Below are positions 1 to 18,197 of a stretch of DNA of 64,000 bases, piece by piece (position 1 is the stretch's first letter; each line of letters begins with the position of its first letter). Source of the DNA: Bacteroidia bacterium (lineage in GTDB: Bacteria; Bacteroidota; Bacteroidia; Chitinophagales; UBA2359); contig JAUHXA010000008.1 in NCBI GenBank assembly GCA_030427245.1, positions 1 to 64,000 on the forward strand, in the 5' to 3' direction. Under the pieces are notes generated by a model that ran no database searches, was not told where the DNA came from, and saw only the letters and a list, made by a program, of their open reading frames with translations. The position numbers were made by a program, and so were the translations under genes.

Positions 1-127
1 AACAAAGTTGTCGTAGGTGGGGGTAAATCGTATTATTGGACATCGACTGTTTTTTGGGTTGAAAATGGGATGATTTGTTTGGTGGAATGTGTTATTTGTC
101 ATACTTTTATGCTGTCGATGTTGTTCG
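1..127 (+). promoter_or_regulatory. Candidate CRISPR leader
   Basis: This stretch immediately precedes the first perfect repeat and holds no recognisable gene. It is placed as the leader side for two reasons: the repeat 3' end ATTGAAAC implies left-to-right transcription, and the degenerate repeats lie at the opposite end. The region contains T-rich and G-rich tracts. No confident -33/-7 promoter pair could be picked out. The leader probably extends left of the window edge, so its true boundary is unknown. Confidence 0.55.
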
Positions 128-1246
128 CTTTTAATCGTACCATATTGGAATTGAAACTCTTTCAAATTCTTCATTTTCTTATTCCCGAATTTGCTTTTAA
201 TCGTACCATATTGGAATTGAAACAATAAGGATATCGGTATTAAGGGCGGTCTTGATTGACTTTTAATCGTACCATATTGGAATTGAAACAATTTTAGGAG
301 CTAATCCTCCATAGCTTGCCCCAGCCTTTTAATCGTACCATATTGGAATTGAAACACGCTTTCAGCGTTATTGATAGCAATTCCCAAATAACTTTTAATC
401 GTACCATATTGGAATTGAAACACATAAAGCCTGTTTTCAAAAATCTGCTCAATCTTTCTTTTAATCGTACCATATTGGAATTGAAACAGTACATTTGACG
501 AGATTGGCGCAAGAGCCGCAACACTTTTAATCGTACCATATTGGAATTGAAACTATGATCTCGGCAATGTTCATTAGCTTTTGTACCTGCTTTTAATCGT
601 ACCATATTGGAATTGAAACGTTCAAACCATGTGGTTTTTGCAAGTGACTGTACACTTTTAATCGTACCATATTGGAATTGAAACTCCTCTGGAACGATGA
701 ATAGAGCTTTGAAGCCTTTCCTTTTAATCGTACCATATTGGAATTGAAACTCACTAAAAAAATAAAGAACTCCACCCTCGACGACTCTTTTAATCGTACC
801 ATATTGGAATTGAAACTCAATAGTGAGATTTGTTCATTCACTCCCAAAATTCCTTTTAATCGTACCATATTGGAATTGAAACAAATCAAAATGTCTGGTT
901 TGTTCAGCATCACAAAAGCTTTTAATCGTACCATATTGGAATTGAAACATTCGATAACGTCAGGAATCGCCATGCTTGAACGTTCTTTTAATCGTACCAT
1001 ATTGGAATTGAAACTAAATAGAACTTTAAAAGATGAATCCAATTGAAATACTTTTAATCGTACCATATTGGAATTGAAACACTATATGTTGCTTGTGTGC
1101 TATTCGGTGATATGTCCTTTTAATCGTACCATATTGGAATTGAAACCCGAAAACATTGGGGTAGTAGCTTTGGAGGGCTGCTTTTAATCGTACCATATTG
1201 GAATTGAAACCAATCACCTTAGCTTCGGTATCTGCTACCAATTGCA

Positions 1247-1408
1247 CTTTTAATCGTACCATATTGGAATTGAAACGTCAAGGATAGAGTAGATTGTCAC
1301 AAAAAGACCATACTTTTAATCGTACCATATTGGAATTGAAACGTCAAGGATAGAGTAGATTGTCACAAAAAGACCATACTTTTAATCATACCATATTGGA
1401 ATTGAAAC
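1247..1408 (+). repeat. Tandem duplication of a CRISPR repeat-spacer unit
   Basis: The 36-nt spacers at 1277-1312 and 1343-1378 are identical. The repeat that follows (1379-1408) carries the only internal substitution noticed in the array, CATACC instead of CGTACC. One repeat-spacer unit was therefore duplicated, probably by recombination between repeats, next to a variant repeat. Confidence 0.95.
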
Positions 1409-4400
1409 ATTGAGTTTACCGCAGCATCATGCTTGACGCTTTGTACTTTTAATCGTACCATATTGGAATTGAAACTTGCGGTTGTCTCAACTTCTTGAAT
1501 AGCAATTATTCTTTTAATCGTACCATATTGGAATTGAAACACATCAAAAAAATTGCGCCTATCGAAAAACCTTTCTCTTTTAATCGTACCATATTGGAAT
1601 TGAAACATCTTTATAGGTTTTTATTCGCATAGGTTTACAGTCTTTTAATCGTACCATATTGGAATTGAAACACATCGAACCAACAGGAAATCTTGACACC
1701 TTCAATCTTTTAATCGTACCATATTGGAATTGAAACTCACTTGTCTTGTCTCGATAATAGCCCCATCGGGTAGCTTTTAATCGTACCATATTGGAATTGA
1801 AACATCACTTTGCTGAAATATTTTTTGAGCCAATCCTCTCTTTTAATCGTACCATATTGGAATTGAAACTATTGTTGCCTCAAAGCAAGGGCATAGTAAA
1901 CAAGTCTTTTAATCGTACCATATTGGAATTGAAACACAAGCACAAGACCCACAACATCAACAGCTATTACCCTTTTAATCGTACCATATTGGAATTGAAA
2001 CCTAAAGGCGTTCCATCACAGCCTCGCTCTCGTGTGACTTTTAATCGTACCATATTGGAATTGAAACATGCCGTTTTGTTTGAAACTGTACCAAAATATC
2101 TTTCTTTTAATCGTACCATATTGGAATTGAAACATGATGGCACTGATTAGGAATACGACATCGGGCGGGCTTTTAATCGTACCATATTGGAATTGAAACA
2201 ATCTTCTTGTTCCACAACCTTGTGATAATAAGTGACTTTTAATCGTACCATATTGGAATTGAAACAACGAATTGCAGGAGCTCACCTCTAAGCCATCGAC
2301 TTTTAATCGTACCATATTGGAATTGAAACCTGTCTGGGCGCAGGAGAATTTAGGCTAATAAGATGCTTTTAATCGTACCATATTGGAATTGAAACAGTAT
2401 TGCAAGGAGCACGAGGATTGGCAGACTTAGACTTTTAATCGTACCATATTGGAATTGAAACACCGCATAATTGCACTTATAAATTATGAGGGATTGACTT
2501 TTAATCGTACCATATTGGAATTGAAACTTGATGGAGGAGATTTAAAAACCTTTCAAGCTGGCCCTTTTAATCGTACCATATTGGAATTGAAACAATACTT
2601 CGACTTCTACAATTGTATTATCTTCGGTCTTTTAATCGTACCATATTGGAATTGAAACAGCGTTTGTGTGTGTTCCTTCTACTGGAAAAGCAGCCTTTTA
2701 ATCGTACCATATTGGAATTGAAACCTAATTGCAGGAGCATACAGGCTGTAAGATAAGAAACTTTTAATCGTACCATATTGGAATTGAAACAAGCCTCTCA
2801 AATGGAGACAATGGAACGGTAAATTACTTTTAATCGTACCATATTGGAATTGAAACTCAAAGAGTGGTTGCGGCTTAGAGGCTTGGATGAACTTTTAATC
2901 GTACCATATTGGAATTGAAACTTCATGGGAATGAATTGGAGGACAGTAATCCGTATGCTTTTAATCGTACCATATTGGAATTGAAACAAGTATTTGCCAG
3001 ATTGAAGTCCTCCGCATCAATAGCTTTTAATCGTACCATATTGGAATTGAAACAGCATTGTCCGAGTGGGTTTATTCGCTCTTCTGTTCTTTTAATCGTA
3101 CCATATTGGAATTGAAACTTGTCAAGCATTATCATTGCAGTAGCAGAAAAGACACTTTTAATCGTACCATATTGGAATTGAAACCAGGAGTTTGAAGATT
3201 GGCTGGAGAACACGCACAACTTTTAATCGTACCATATTGGAATTGAAACTTTTTGTTCTTGACTTTCAAAGTAGTCTCTAATATTCTTTTAATCGTACCA
3301 TATTGGAATTGAAACGCAAACCGTCATTACAATATCCGTTCGTGCTACCGTCTTTTAATCGTACCATATTGGAATTGAAACAACTCAAAAGTTTCAAAGT
3401 TGCCTTTTTCGTTTATTTCTTTTAATCGTACCATATTGGAATTGAAACTCTGCATTTATGCCATATTCCTGAATCCTATTTTGACTTTTAATCGTACCAT
3501 ATTGGAATTGAAACATAAAAAACCCGTTTGCCTGTTCGCTTTCATTGAAACTTTTAATCGTACCATATTGGAATTGAAACTTTTTTTATCAACTCTCTTT
3601 TCCAGCAAAGTCAATAACTTTTAATCGTACCATATTGGAATTGAAACACAATGAATTAGCCTCTTATATTGATTGGGAGAAACTTTTAATCGTACCATAT
3701 TGGAATTGAAACCGAATCAAACGAAAGAGCATTGAAGCAATTAATCAACTTTTAATCGTACCATATTGGAATTGAAACCTTCAAAAAATTTTGGAATAAA
3801 AAGAGCTTAATCCTCTTTTAATCGTACCATATTGGAATTGAAACCGTATAAAAATACTGCCGCCTATCCACCGCCACAAACTTTTAATCGTACCATATTG
3901 GAATTGAAACCCTATCTTTTTGTATGTCGCCCCATTCGGGGCTTTTCTTTTAATCGTACCATATTGGAATTGAAACACAAAAGGCGACAATGCAAGCAAT
4001 AAAAAACGCATACTTTTAATCGTACCATATTGGAATTGAAACTTGATGGAGAAGTTTTGTGTGGAATTGGGGATTGCTTTTAATCGTACCATATTGGAAT
4101 TGAAACTTGCATTGTATTGAAGGAGTAGGAGCAGAAACGGCACTTTTAATCGTACCATATTGGAATTGAAACACGAATCCGTTACCAATGCAAGGCTATC
4201 ACAGCAAGCTTTTAATCGTACCATATTGGAATTGAAACTGGATTCCCCGCCGCTTTGTTGGGCATCGCCTCCACTTTTAATCGTACCATATTGGAATTGA
4301 AACGATGATCGATCAGCTCTTTTTCGCTTCCATGCTTCACTTTTAATCGTACCATATTGGAATTGAAACCCGTTTGTCGTATTGCTTTGGTGAACAACTA

Positions 4401-6732
4401 ATTGACTTTTAATCGTACCATATTGGAATTGAAACGTGACGAGCATGGGGAGCGTTATCCGAAACTGGACACTTTTAATCGTACCATATTGGAATTGAAA
4501 CTAAAAAAACGCTTATACGGCTATCTCCCTATTACCTTTTAATCGTACCATATTGGAATTGAAACATAATAATACTAATAAGGATACTGAAACAATAGGG
4601 GCTTTTAATCGTACCATATTGGAATTGAAACTTTTCATTAGCAATTTGCCGTATTTTCTTTAGCGACCTTTTAATCGTACCATATTGGAATTGAAACTAA
4701 ATGTGCATTGAGGGGTTTTTGTCCTCTCTGAATCTTTTAATCGTACCATATTGGAATTGAAACCAATAGAAATGAGTGCAGAAATTGAAATTCAACAAGC
4801 TTTTAATCGTACCATATTGGAATTGAAACTATGACAGGCACCAGTCATTTCCTGTTGAGTCTGTACTTTTAATCGTACCATATTGGAATTGAAACAAGCG
4901 TGTTGAATAGCTCTTATATCTGCCCCGCTTTCTTTTAATCGTACCATATTGGAATTGAAACCCTAAAAAACTGGTTCAGCCTTTCGGTAACATTAAACTT
5001 TTAATCGTACCATATTGGAATTGAAACCAACTCGCAAATCAAGGGTGAGTGATGCGATTGAGCTTTTAATCGTACCATATTGGAATTGAAACTTAAGAAT
5101 TGCAAAAGGACTTATTGATTTTGACACACTTTTAATCGTACCATATTGGAATTGAAACTGATTTTGACGCTATCTGTTTGTGCCACCAAGAAGCTTTTAA
5201 TCGTACCATATTGGAATTGAAACAAGATTGGCAGTTTCATATCCAAAAACATAAGTTAACTTTTAATCGTACCATATTGGAATTGAAACATACCAAATGT
5301 GTGTCCAGGCCTTCAAAGTTTGCCACTTTTAATCGTACCATATTGGAATTGAAACTTACCAACGTCCAAACGCCTACAATTTTCAAGTAACTTTTAATCG
5401 TACCATATTGGAATTGAAACATAATGACCGCACAAATAGCGCATCAAATTTGGATGCTTTTAATCGTACCATATTGGAATTGAAACGTCATTGCAATTAG
5501 CTGCATACGTTCCTCCTTTGACTTTTAATCGTACCATATTGGAATTGAAACTTCCTTCAGTAAAAGGCAAAGATTCAATCTTAGCTGGCTTTTAATCGTA
5601 CCATATTGGAATTGAAACGCAATTACGGTAACGAGCGCAACAGCAGATAGTCAACTTTTAATCGTACCATATTGGAATTGAAACCAATCTATTGATGACT
5701 TGTTAGATTTGTCAAAACGTGCTTTTAATCGTACCATATTGGAATTGAAACTTTTCTTTTCGTGTAATTCCTAAAGTGTTATCTGTCTTTTAATCGTACC
5801 ATATTGGAATTGAAACACAAATGCAACGACAAAAAACATTTTCAAATGAAGTCTTTTAATCGTACCATATTGGAATTGAAACATGTCCGACAACTCACCG
5901 CAGGAAACAGCTCATCGCTTTTAATCGTACCATATTGGAATTGAAACGTCGTGCGGCTTCTCCTTCTGCCTTCGCTCGTTCTTCTTTTAATCGTACCATA
6001 TTGGAATTGAAACTCAATAGTATCGTTCTAAACTGATTGATTCTTTCTCTTTTAATCGTACCATATTGGAATTGAAACTTTTCCGAGAGGCAAGCGATAA
6101 TGTTTGCAAGAAAACTTTTAATCGTACCATATTGGAATTGAAACAGGGTTGTCTATCTTTAGAGTCTTGAACAAAGCTCCCTTTTAATCGTACCATATTG
6201 GAATTGAAACTGGATGAATTGAAGCGAATTGAATCCGTAAAAGTTTCTTTTAATCGTACCATATTGGAATTGAAACTTCAATATAACGGTCTTAACACTA
6301 TTTCTTGTCTGCTTTTAATCGTACCATATTGGAATTGAAACTGAGATTTAATATTTTCAAATATAGATGCCAATTCACTTTTAATCGTACCATATTGGAA
6401 TTGAAACTTCTCTGTGCATATTATGATTTTCTAATTGCTGTCTTTTAATCGTACCATATTGGAATTGAAACATTGATTATACTATCATTCAACCTTTTTG
6501 TTCTCTCTTTTAATCGTACCATATTGGAATTGAAACTCATTTGATTGCTTCAATTCTTCAGCAGGCAAGTATCTTTTAATCGTACCATATTGGAATTGAA
6601 ACTCAATGTAAAAATATTTCCTCAAAATGGCTTATATCTTTTAATCGTACCATATTGGAATTGAAACACGGCTCACGGATGCCAACCAGCCCAAGAACAA
6701 TACTTTTAATCGTACCATATTGGAATTGAAAC

Positions 6733-6833
6733 ATATTTATTTATTATAGGCACTATTTTGCAGACAACTTTTAATCGTACCATATTGGAATTGAAACATA
6801 ATAAATAAATATAGGTAGCAGGACTAAGAAGGG
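6733..6833 (+). repeat. Head-to-head overlapping spacer pair
   Basis: The spacer at 6733-6767 begins ATATTTATTTATTAT. The next spacer at 6798-6833 begins ATAATAAATAAATAT, its exact reverse complement over 15 nt. Both continue with AGG. The two protospacers therefore overlap on opposite strands of one locus. The 5' flank of each can be read from the other spacer and is CCT in both cases. Confidence 0.9.
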
Positions 6834-8784
6834 CTTTTAATCGTACCATATTGGAATTGAAACTCTATTGTCAACTTATCGGTGTAGGGCCCTCCCCTAC
6901 TTTTAATCGTACCATATTGGAATTGAAACCCAATGTCGATTGGTAAATATTCAAAGGGTAGGCGTCTTTTAATCGTACCATATTGGAATTGAAACAATTG
7001 TTGAGCAAAAAACTAATAAAGAGAGAATTATCTTTTAATCGTACCATATTGGAATTGAAACATATTTGAACGGCGCAAACATTAGTACGGTTTGGCTCTT
7101 TTAATCGTACCATATTGGAATTGAAACAATCCTTTATATCCTCTAGTTGTTCCTCTTCACAATCTTTTAATCGTACCATATTGGAATTGAAACCTTTAAC
7201 ACTAACAAAATCGCTATCCTTCATTATTCTTTTAATCGTACCATATTGGAATTGAAACAAGGGGCTTACCGCATTGGCTATTCAATTAACTTGCTTTTAA
7301 TCGTACCATATTGGAATTGAAACATGCCGTTTTCACCTTCGGACACAAGGGCTATCTTGCTTTTAATCGTACCATATTGGAATTGAAACTTTACAGGTAT
7401 AAAAGCGGCAAGCGTAGACAATGATCTTTTAATCGTACCATATTGGAATTGAAACATTCCCATAGCTTTAAAACTATCCTTAGCCTCCTTTACTTTTAAT
7501 CGTACCATATTGGAATTGAAACTACAAGATTACGCATAGTGCTATAACTTCTATCTGTCTTTTAATCGTACCATATTGGAATTGAAACACTCAAATACTA
7601 CCTCCTCCGCATCCAGAGCATCAACTTTTAATCGTACCATATTGGAATTGAAACTTGTTTAACTCATTCACTTTCTCCCATGTATTTTCACTTTTAATCG
7701 TACCATATTGGAATTGAAACTACTTGACCAAACATTTAATTAATAACGTTATCGAGTCTTTTAATCGTACCATATTGGAATTGAAACCAAAGCATTAGTG
7801 ACGTAGACATTACCAAAACCATTCTTTTAATCGTACCATATTGGAATTGAAACAAGACAAAGATTCCGTTTTCTGGAAGGGAAGTTATTCTTTTAATCGT
7901 ACCATATTGGAATTGAAACGCTATCATCAATAATTCTCCTCACTTCTTCGTAGTTCTTTTAATCGTACCATATTGGAATTGAAACATCGCATTAGGCATT
8001 GCATAACTAATATTAGCAACACTTTTAATCGTACCATATTGGAATTGAAACAGCGCATAGGCTTTTTTTATGCTATTACACTACAATCTTTTAATCGTAC
8101 CATATTGGAATTGAAACATCCAAACTTCAATCAACCTAAAGGTTTAGACGATGCTTTTAATCGTACCATATTGGAATTGAAACTTTTTAATAACTTTACA
8201 AACTAAAAACTTAGTTTCCTTTTAATCGTACCATATTGGAATTGAAACTTTCCTGTAATTTGTCAATGAACGCTTTTTGAAATTCTTTTAATCGTACCAT
8301 ATTGGAATTGAAACTTCATTTCTTCATCAAAATTAAATAGTGAAGAGGTCTTTTAATCGTACCATATTGGAATTGAAACAACGAAATCATATTCGGGCTT
8401 GCATTCCAAATCACCTTTTAATCGTACCATATTGGAATTGAAACTTAAATCGCCTTTCTATATGAGAAAAATCTGGGTTGCTTTTAATCGTACCATATTG
8501 GAATTGAAACTGTTTTACCGTCTTTCGTTGCATGATAGTAGGTTACTTTTAATCGTACCATATTGGAATTGAAACGTGCAAAATCTGTTTAACCCATTGG
8601 GGAAAAACTTTCTTTTAATCGTACCATATTGGAATTGAAACATATAGGAAGGGAAGCGACATTGAATTTTGGCTTTCTTTTAATCGTACCATATTGGAAT
8701 TGAAACGTTGTTGAAAAACTCAATGGAGGCTTTGCACAAATCCTTTTAATCGTACCATATTGGAATTGAAACTTTGCTAAAGTG

Positions 8785-8807
8785 TGGGTGACTTGTTATC
8801 TGTTTGC
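8785..8807 (+). repeat. 23-nt segment shared with the spacer at 10029-10065
   Basis: The 3' 23 nt of the spacer 8773-8807 (starting TGGGTGACTTG, ending CTGTTTGC) recur exactly at 10043-10065 in a spacer 19 units away. The 5' parts differ but both contain TTTGC. This looks like two acquisitions from diverged but homologous targets, not an array-internal duplication. Confidence 0.9.
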
Positions 8808-11184
8808 CTTTTAATCGTACCATATTGGAATTGAAACTAGACGACAAAGCAGACTTATCACATACGCACGACACTTTTAATCGTACCATATTGGAATTGA
8901 AACAACCTTTGAAACCGCTACTTACAGCGTCCGTTGTGTCTTTTAATCGTACCATATTGGAATTGAAACACCTCTAAATTATTTTTCCTCTTATCCAATG
9001 CGTCCACTTTTAATCGTACCATATTGGAATTGAAACCTTACGTTTTCATATAAGAGTGGGCGAGATATTGGACTTTTAATCGTACCATATTGGAATTGAA
9101 ACAAAGGAAATCAACCAATCCTTCACCCAACGACTCGACTTTTAATCGTACCATATTGGAATTGAAACTGTCAAGAAATCTCCTTCGTGAACGACATTGT
9201 GACTTTTAATCGTACCATATTGGAATTGAAACATCTTTTAAATCTGCTCTATCTTTACTATGGAACTTTCTTTTAATCGTACCATATTGGAATTGAAACT
9301 GAAGACCTACACGACTCCTTCTATGAAACAATTGACTTTTAATCGTACCATATTGGAATTGAAACCATCATAACTTGGAGCAGAAAAGGAAATTTAGTCT
9401 ATCTTTTAATCGTACCATATTGGAATTGAAACATTCCTGCACAATCGCATGTTTGTTTTGCTCTTTTCTCTTTTAATCGTACCATATTGGAATTGAAACT
9501 GGTGAGAGATTAATAAACCCTTTTTAGATGCTCAACTTTTAATCGTACCATATTGGAATTGAAACATTTTTGGGAAATCACAGGCGGTACGATTGTCGTA
9601 CCTTTTAATCGTACCATATTGGAATTGAAACAATGGGGTAAGTCTCATTGAAGGAACTTTGAATAGTCTTTTAATCGTACCATATTGGAATTGAAACAAA
9701 ATGGATTGCTTGAATTTGGCTTTGGATGTGGCACTTTTAATCGTACCATATTGGAATTGAAACCACAAAGCTGCAAAGTGCTTAACTGGTGATAATTTAC
9801 TTTTAATCGTACCATATTGGAATTGAAACATCATAAACATGGTTCTAAACAATAGCTTTGTTTCTTCTTTTAATCGTACCATATTGGAATTGAAACCATA
9901 TTGCTGCCCTGCAATGAAAACCGCAATAAGTACTTTTAATCGTACCATATTGGAATTGAAACACCTTGACCAATACGCCGTCCACCTTCATGTACTCACT
10001 TTTAATCGTACCATATTGGAATTGAAACAACCTTTTGCAAGATGGGTGACTTGTTATCTGTTTGCCTTTTAATCGTACCATATTGGAATTGAAACTTATA
10101 AACAAGAATGATGAAGATTTCAAAACTTACGCTTTTAATCGTACCATATTGGAATTGAAACATTACAATCTTCATCAGATTTAAAACAACATCCTCTCTT
10201 TTAATCGTACCATATTGGAATTGAAACTGGTTTGAAGGTCATGGCGTTTTTCGGAGGCAGTACTTTTAATCGTACCATATTGGAATTGAAACCAAAAGAT
10301 ATGCGCTACTGCTATGGGTTGGCTCAAACTTTTAATCGTACCATATTGGAATTGAAACATTGAAATTTAGAAGGCACTTTTTCATTTGGGAAACTTTTAA
10401 TCGTACCATATTGGAATTGAAACATAAAGGTCTGTTATAGCTTGAAGGATTGCCATGTACTTTTAATCGTACCATATTGGAATTGAAACACGATAAATTC
10501 TGCCACAACAAACTAAGCCAACCAACTTTTAATCGTACCATATTGGAATTGAAACATTCTTCGCACCAAGGTTCAACAAATTCTACTTGCCACTTTTAAT
10601 CGTACCATATTGGAATTGAAACCCACAGAGGGCGAAATTATTGACACGCCCGAACTCACTTTTAATCGTACCATATTGGAATTGAAACCCCTCATACGCA
10701 AACGCACCACCTCAATTGCCTCCTCTTTTAATCGTACCATATTGGAATTGAAACACCCGACCGCCTCATTTTTCCGATTGGCAACGATTTCTTTTAATCG
10801 TACCATATTGGAATTGAAACATACCTCAATTTATTTTTTCGGTTTTTCAAGGCTGCTTTTAATCGTACCATATTGGAATTGAAACTTCCTGAAAGTTTAG
10901 ACGGGTCTGTTTTATATTGCTCTTTTAATCGTACCATATTGGAATTGAAACAAAACTTGCTTTATCTTTGCAGTGAACAACATTATTCTTTTAATCGTAC
11001 CATATTGGAATTGAAACTGTCCTAATGACCATGTGCAATGCCCAATCCTTCGCTTTTAATCGTACCATATTGGAATTGAAACTCCATGAGCATCAGGATA
11101 AGGTTCTAAGCGCAAACTCTTTTAATCGTACCATATTGGAATTGAAACAAAGAAAAACTTGACGATGATTTGAAGTATTACGTA

Positions 11185-11344
11185 CTTTTAATCGTACCAT
11201 ATTGGAATTGAAATCTGAATAACAAATTTTTAGGAGGGTTTAAGGGAGGCTTTTAATCGTACCATATTGGAATTGAAATAGTGAAAGCAGCGCACGAAGC
11301 AAAGCTGATAGAAGCTTTTAATCGTACCATATTGGAATTGAAAT
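11185..11344 (+). repeat. Degenerate trailer-end repeats
   Basis: The last three repeats (11185-11214, 11250-11279, 11315-11344) all end GAAAT instead of GAAAC. This changes the last base of the predicted crRNA handle. Terminal degeneracy marks the distal, oldest end of an array, and sharing of the same change suggests it spread with the oldest units. Confidence 0.9.
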
Positions 11345-17257: not shown

Positions 17258-18197
17258 CCCACTTTAATAGCCAATCATAAATATCCTGTCCTGCAAAAAC
17301 ACGCCTCCACACATCGTGTCCCATGTCTTCGTGAATGGTAAAGCGCAGATTGTCGTGTCCTAATTCCTCCAACTCATTCATCCCTTCAAAAAAATATTGC
17401 GTTTCTACTGCCTTATCACGACCACCCGCAAAAGCCCAAATAGGAATTTTTTCTTTCGCAATTGATATCATCAAATCAGGATGACCCCAACCGACCACAG
17501 GACTGATAGCCGCAAACAATTTTGGATGTTTACTTGCCATATACCAAGTACCAAAACCTCCATAACTCAATCCGCTTAAATACAATCGCTTGGAGTCGCC
17601 ATTGTAGTCTTTCAGCACTATATCAATCATGGTCAATAAATCTTCTTCACACCTTTCCCACCCATTTGGTGGTAAGGCTTCTAAAGTTTCAGCAGGTACT
17701 GCCCCCATCATCTTTTCGTCTGTTCCGAAAGATGCCTCCCTTGGCGGCGTGCCTTCTTCTAAACGTTTGGGAATAGATTTTTTGTCTCGATGGGTGAGGT
17801 AATCCAATCCAATGGTATCTCTGCCAAACATGGGCAATTGTGGAACAATCATGATGAAAGGTAAATCTCTTTTTTGAATCCAAGCCTCATATAATGGTCC
17901 GTGAACCATTACCCAATCTAATTCGTCTTTGCCATTGCCTCGTTCACCATCTCCATGCAAAAACATCAAAACAGGTAGTTTTTTGCCTTGATTGACCGCT
18001 TCTTCGTAACCTTTGGGGAGGTAGAGGTAAAAGTCTCTTTCTTTTTGGTCAACGGTGCTGTTAATCGGTATTCGTAGGAGTTGGGCAGAGCTGTTTGTTG
18101 GTGGTGAAGTAGGGTTTTTCATTGAAGTACAAGAGATTGCAATTGCAGTAATAAAAAATGTAAAAACCAAAAATGGAAGTAGTGGTATCTGTTTCAT
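17250..18197 (-). CDS. Lipoprotein alpha/beta-hydrolase (esterase-like)
   Basis: This is a 315-residue lipoprotein. The ATG at 18197 is chosen because MKQIPLLPFLVFTFF...AISC forms a lipobox signal; the longer start only adds MIFQKSFFLP. The alpha/beta-hydrolase core shows LPVLMFLHGDGERGNG (oxyanion region), the nucleophile elbow GLSYGG with Ser about 211, a GGRD acid segment and a MGHDVW His near the end. The closest recognised group is the PHB-depolymerase/LpqC-like esterases. The enzyme is probably anchored facing the periplasm or surface, with an unknown ester or peptide substrate. It stands alone between two gaps. Confidence 0.85.
   Translation of the reverse strand: MKQIPLLPFLVFTFFITAIAISCTSMKNPTSPPTNSSAQLLRIPINSTVDQKERDFYLYLPKGYEEAVNQGKKLPVLMFLHGDGERGNGKDELDWVMVHGPLYEAWIQKRDLPFIMIVPQLPMFGRDTIGLDYLTHRDKKSIPKRLEEGTPPREASFGTDEKMMGAVPAETLEALPPNGWERCEEDLLTMIDIVLKDYNGDSKRLYLSGLSYGGFGTWYMASKHPKLFAAISPVVGWGHPDLMISIAKEKIPIWAFAGGRDKAVETQYFFEGMNELEELGHDNLRFTIHEDMGHDVWRRVFAGQDIYDWLLKWEK

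Follow-up and report, generated by a model that had tools for sequence, protein, structure and literature searches.

A probable type I-B CRISPR array with a 5'-CC motif and two spacers taken from opposite strands of one site

The array described here, from a Bacteroidota bacterium that is probably a member of the Saprospiraceae, very probably belongs to type I-B and relies for acquisition and interference on a 5'-CC protospacer-adjacent motif (PAM), with A strongly preferred at position −1; its neighbouring spacers 101 and 102 derive from the two strands of one 56-bp site edged by CCT. We reached this reading from the overlap between the two spacers, from the flanks of protospacers on a phage contig of the same assembly, and from loci elsewhere whose repeat is identical to that of the array or almost so.

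The array and its overlapping spacers

The window, that is, the whole stretch analysed, comprises the opening 64 kb of contig C31 in the 7.58-Mb assembly G000 (G000:C31). The features of the array and of the pair are as follows.

1..127, + strand: leader-side remainder; contig C31 starts at window base 1, 127 bp before repeat 1
128..11344, + strand: CRISPR array of 171 repeats and 170 spacers
6733..6767, + strand: spacer 101, ATATTTATTTATTATAGGCACTATTTTGCAGACAA, 35 nt; newer and leader-proximal; spacer 102 implies CCT as the 5' flank of its protospacer
6798..6833, + strand: spacer 102, ATAATAAATAAATATAGGTAGCAGGACTAAGAAGGG, 36 nt; older; spacer 101 implies CCT as the 5' flank of its protospacer

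The repeat unit is 30 nt long (CTTTTAATCGTACCATATTGGAATTGAAAC) and occurs in four variants across the array, the spacers measure 34-37 nt, and the final three repeats, at the high-coordinate end, read ...GAAAT in place of GAAAC. In two relatives that share the repeat exactly or almost exactly, a cas operon is followed by the leader and then by the array, each on the repeat strand. This order and the terminal GAAAT repeats place the leader at the low-coordinate end, and spacer 102 is therefore older than spacer 101. Elsewhere in the array, spacers 18 and 19 (window 1277-1408) are identical, a duplicated or twice-acquired unit, and are followed by the sole internal repeat variant, CTTTTAATCATACC... 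Spacers 132 (8773-8807) and 151 (10029-10065) have their last 23 nt in common on the same strand and differ at their 5' ends, which would fit capture from diverged copies of a single gene, two in number; a search of IMG/VR with the common stretch gave no match.

The first 15 nt of spacers 101 and 102 are exact reverse complements. The sequence-only reading had reported this together with the coordinates of both spacers, and each proved exact on re-checking. Merging the pair (35 + 36 − 15) reproduces the joined 56-bp target that it had described, 5'-CCCTTCTTAGTCCTGCTACCTATATTTATTTATTATAGGCACTATTTTGCAGACAA-3', with CCT on one side of the shared core and AGG on the other. The core consists of A and T only and is followed directly by AGG in both spacers, which means that CCT precedes each protospacer on its own strand. 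Both the overlap and its CC...GG edges are seen directly in the array.

Chance matches were modelled with simulated arrays of 170 spacers from a first-order Markov process of the same composition. Start-to-start reverse complementarity reached 14 nt in none of 300 such arrays (longest 13 nt, usually below 9), and about 1e-4 start-to-start pairs with the core of spacers 101 and 102 are expected. Within the real array, this pair is the only opposite-strand overlap of at least 13 nt. The simulations, with AGG after the core in both spacers, bear out the proposal that the two are overlapping protospacers from opposite strands of one site.

If a match is allowed at any position, an easier register, 15 nt was reached in 1 of 100 simulated arrays, and GG directly after A in both spacers has a chance of about 1e-3 from base frequencies; it is the both-starts register combined with GG after A that makes the overlap convincing. 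The any-position result lends something to a two-site origin, in which the 15-mer, made of A and T only, is repeated in the target or palindromic and so present there in two places, and the CCT flanks are not real, as do a core devoid of G and C, the chance occurrence of the same 15-mer in the phage contig, and the lack of a target for the pair in the collections searched. We nevertheless consider two sites unlikely: the spacers are neighbours, their match runs precisely from start to start, and each has AGG after the core, the arrangement to be expected if a single site has a CC PAM on both strands.

Searches of IMG/VR for the target returned no match to the 21-bp core with CCT/AGG or to either of the pair's outer halves. 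Nor was there a match to the core plus left flank in GTDB contigs, or to the central 34 bp, with as many as 3 mismatches allowed, in any of 398 genomes of the order, the array's own included. The array gave nothing convincing against phage records and one weak match, in Runella rosea, against plasmid records, and its DNA matched only other CRISPR arrays, via the repeat, in genomes of the order. A spacer-only query with the first 4.7 kb of spacers, in which two candidates per genome of the order were scored, produced marginal matches; when these were compared over their whole length, with up to 8 mismatches allowed, three remained, one with 5 mismatches (spacer 26, flank TAC) and two with 7-8, and we treated them as chance.

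Protospacer flanks on phage contig C70

When the array was searched against its own assembly, 13 spacers matched contig C70 (G000:C70:1-107784; 107,784 bp) over their full length with 0-3 mismatches, whereas reversed spacers, used as a control, gave no match to it even at 7 mismatches. The array features concerned are these.

2200..3219, + strand: spacers 32-47; 11 of 16 match C70 at no more than 2 mismatches, mostly with 5'-CCA
4502..4535, + strand: spacer 67; C70 protospacer at 64082 (− strand), 3 mismatches, CCA
5883..5917, + strand: spacer 88, the oldest C70-matching spacer; exact, CCA, within the Rep3 replication initiator gene of C70

The large terminase subunit identifies C70 as a phage, sharing about 42% identity with its counterparts in Bacteroides phage Versailles and Flavobacterium phage 11b; since C70 also encodes the plasmid-type Rep3 initiator, it may be a phage-plasmid. 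Its other genes include four DNA methyltransferase genes and a PAPS reductase. No terminal overlap was found at its ends. IMG/VR held no relative of the terminase and no match to spacer 88, and the terminases found in relatives were distant (up to 46% identity), with no protospacers in the stretches of about 3-4 kb compared from these relatives. C70 shares a bin with a host whose array targets it with 13 spacers, of which eight are exact with intact CCA; it may reside in that host's cell as an element, or the contig may simply have been co-binned.

The 5' flanks of the 13 protospacers, all from this one phage, read CCA in ten cases and CCC, CTA and CGT once each. By column, C occupies −3 in 13/13 and −2 in 11/13, and A occupies −1 in 11/13; no other flanking column is conserved, those of the 3' flank included. 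CCA precedes all eight exact protospacers (P = 3e-15 against a background of 0.015 per position) as well as those with 2 and 3 mismatches. A weak match of spacer 27 (7 mismatches, flank CCG) was excluded from the count. The CCA consensus is observed directly: the PAM is short, lies 5' and is read on the strand that matches the spacer, and the flanks define it as 5'-CC with a strong preference for A at −1.

The sequence-only reading had named CCT as the PAM and expected CCT or CCN beside other protospacers. Its 5' side and its CC at −3/−2 stand, and CCN precedes 11 of the 13; its third base does not, as no C70 protospacer follows CCT. That the PAM is nonetheless CCT, with CCA peculiar to this phage, would explain CCT at both ends of the 56-bp site, but we hold it to be most unlikely: it is largely refuted by the C70 flanks, given that CCT is nearly as common per position there (0.0141) as CCA (0.0151). 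The spacers themselves tell weakly in the same direction, CCT/AGG being if anything over-represented inside them (z = +2.2/+2.3) and CCA/TGG not (z = −1.0/−1.4), which weakly fits CCA as the selected motif.

We infer that CCT at the pair is a minority PAM that the system tolerates. From the eight CCA flanks in eight exact protospacers, a single-rule model gives a posterior chance of about 2% for two CCT in a row, so either position −1 is more permissive than C70 indicates or the pair is exceptional. With neither a CCT protospacer nor a target of the pair found in the collections searched, the evidence for CCT consists of the two spacers themselves.

The three C70 protospacers with other flanks, at 17813, 81827 and 83442 (CTA, CCC and CGT, respectively), each also carry one mismatch to their spacer, and two of these mismatches are synonymous. 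Non-CCA flanks are associated with mismatch status (exact against mismatched, Fisher p = 0.035), and these protospacers are possible PAM escape variants.

Order and route of acquisition

Spacers against C70 are clustered in the array, with 11 falling among the 16 consecutive spacers 32-47, an arrangement matched in extremity by 0 of 100,000 permutations. On a circular map, for which circularity of C70 is assumed, the protospacer strands form two blocks (p = 0.008), and around the site of spacer 88 opposite-strand spacers lie on the PAM side and same-strand spacers on the other. In type I-F, targeted acquisition starts on the displaced strand, to the 5' side of the protospacer that is targeted (PMC5059440), and a passage of the same paper cites similar spacer distributions for a type I-B system. 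Taken together, the burst of C70 spacers and their partition of strand by side identify the pattern of primed, or targeted, acquisition for C70. In this the array resembles the type I-F system of Pectobacterium and the type I-B system of Haloarcula hispanica, where new spacers likewise cluster on one invader with strand set by side; unlike in those systems, acquisition here is deduced from the end state of an array and was not followed over time.

Primed adaptation is better supported by this cluster than by the pair. For spacers 101 and 102 it is plausible, judging from their position on opposite strands with one immediately on the PAM side of the other, as in Pectobacterium and H. hispanica. 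Any head-to-head pair has the look of primed geometry, and this one is the shortest-range case. The order and mechanism of acquisition of the pair that we infer would be the following. Spacer 102 was most likely captured first; interference or priming at its target would then have yielded spacer 101 from the opposite strand, directly on the PAM side, so that both would have been taken successively from one 56-bp site with two inward-facing CCT motifs.

Slipped or flipped capture of one or both spacers at a CCA outside the 56 bp would render the inner CCT incidental. Slipping and flipping are both documented in type I-F acquisition, where flipping is, however, rare (under 0.5%; PMC5059440), and in an array of the same repeat family (G116:C28) spacers 8 and 66 represent the same 35-nt protospacer in both orientations, which suggests flipped integration. 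Such an origin leaves CC at both inner edges to chance, and we give it hardly any credence. It is also very unlikely that two rules operate, a strict CCA for most acquisition and a CCT-permissive mode such as very short-range priming from a just-acquired spacer; were this true, the −1 base of the PAM would depend on the acquisition route. Our preferred reading remains a single 5'-CC motif, with A preferred at −1, used on both strands of one site.

Subtype assignment and significance

Unlike known type I-B loci, the array has no cas genes that we could find in its assembly: searches of G000 for Cas1 (PF01867), Cas5 (PF09704), DevR-type Cas7 (PF01905) and Cas3 (TIGR01587, over cut-off) were negative. 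As contig C31 begins so close to repeat 1, a cas operon upstream of the leader would lie off the contig, and the subtype is assigned by proxy. The exact repeat occurs in JALHOZ010000020.1, from a Saprospiraceae metagenome-assembled genome, just after cas8b-cas7b-cas5b-cas3-cas4-cas1b-cas2, a complete type I-B operon, and a leader. The G116 repeat, one base different, sits with Cas6b, Cas3, Cas8a, Cas7, Cas5a, Cas4b and Cas1b, and its Cas8a/Cas5a-type effectors make I-B the best proxy but not the only one. A repeat of about 30 nt ending in ATTGAAAC and spacers of about 36 nt, together with the exact repeat at a type I-B locus, point to type I-B as the probable subtype. Within the G116 operon, an AbiEi/AbiEii toxin-antitoxin-like pair lies between cas5 and cas4 (L051:3625-5278). 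A further contig of G000 carries four degenerate CRISPR-like repeats (G000:C144:31047-31358; GTACCATTTTGGGATTGAAAC), with no cas among the ORFs seen nearby, and these appear to be the remnant of an old array.

Among the PAMs published for type I-B are CCA (Moorella), CCN (Clostridium) and CCT (Ureibacillus) (PMC8482600), and the type I-B system of Clostridioides difficile acquires spacers from CCN (PMC8406132). The present array is like that of C. difficile in a 5' PAM that begins with CC, with CCA frequent, and its 34-37 nt spacers compare with mostly 34-40 nt there (average 36-37); it differs in that position −1 is more strictly A, the CCT pair excepted.

Overlapping spacers can thus reveal a PAM from the array alone, and a single overlapping pair can also mislead in one base; here it gave two bases of three correctly. 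The pair adds a small twist to what is otherwise a routine immune record, probably of type I-B. The useful product is a measured CCA motif for this Saprospiraceae-type I-B repeat, and the array and C70 together form a host-phage pair in which acquisition bursts and altered PAMs are readable.
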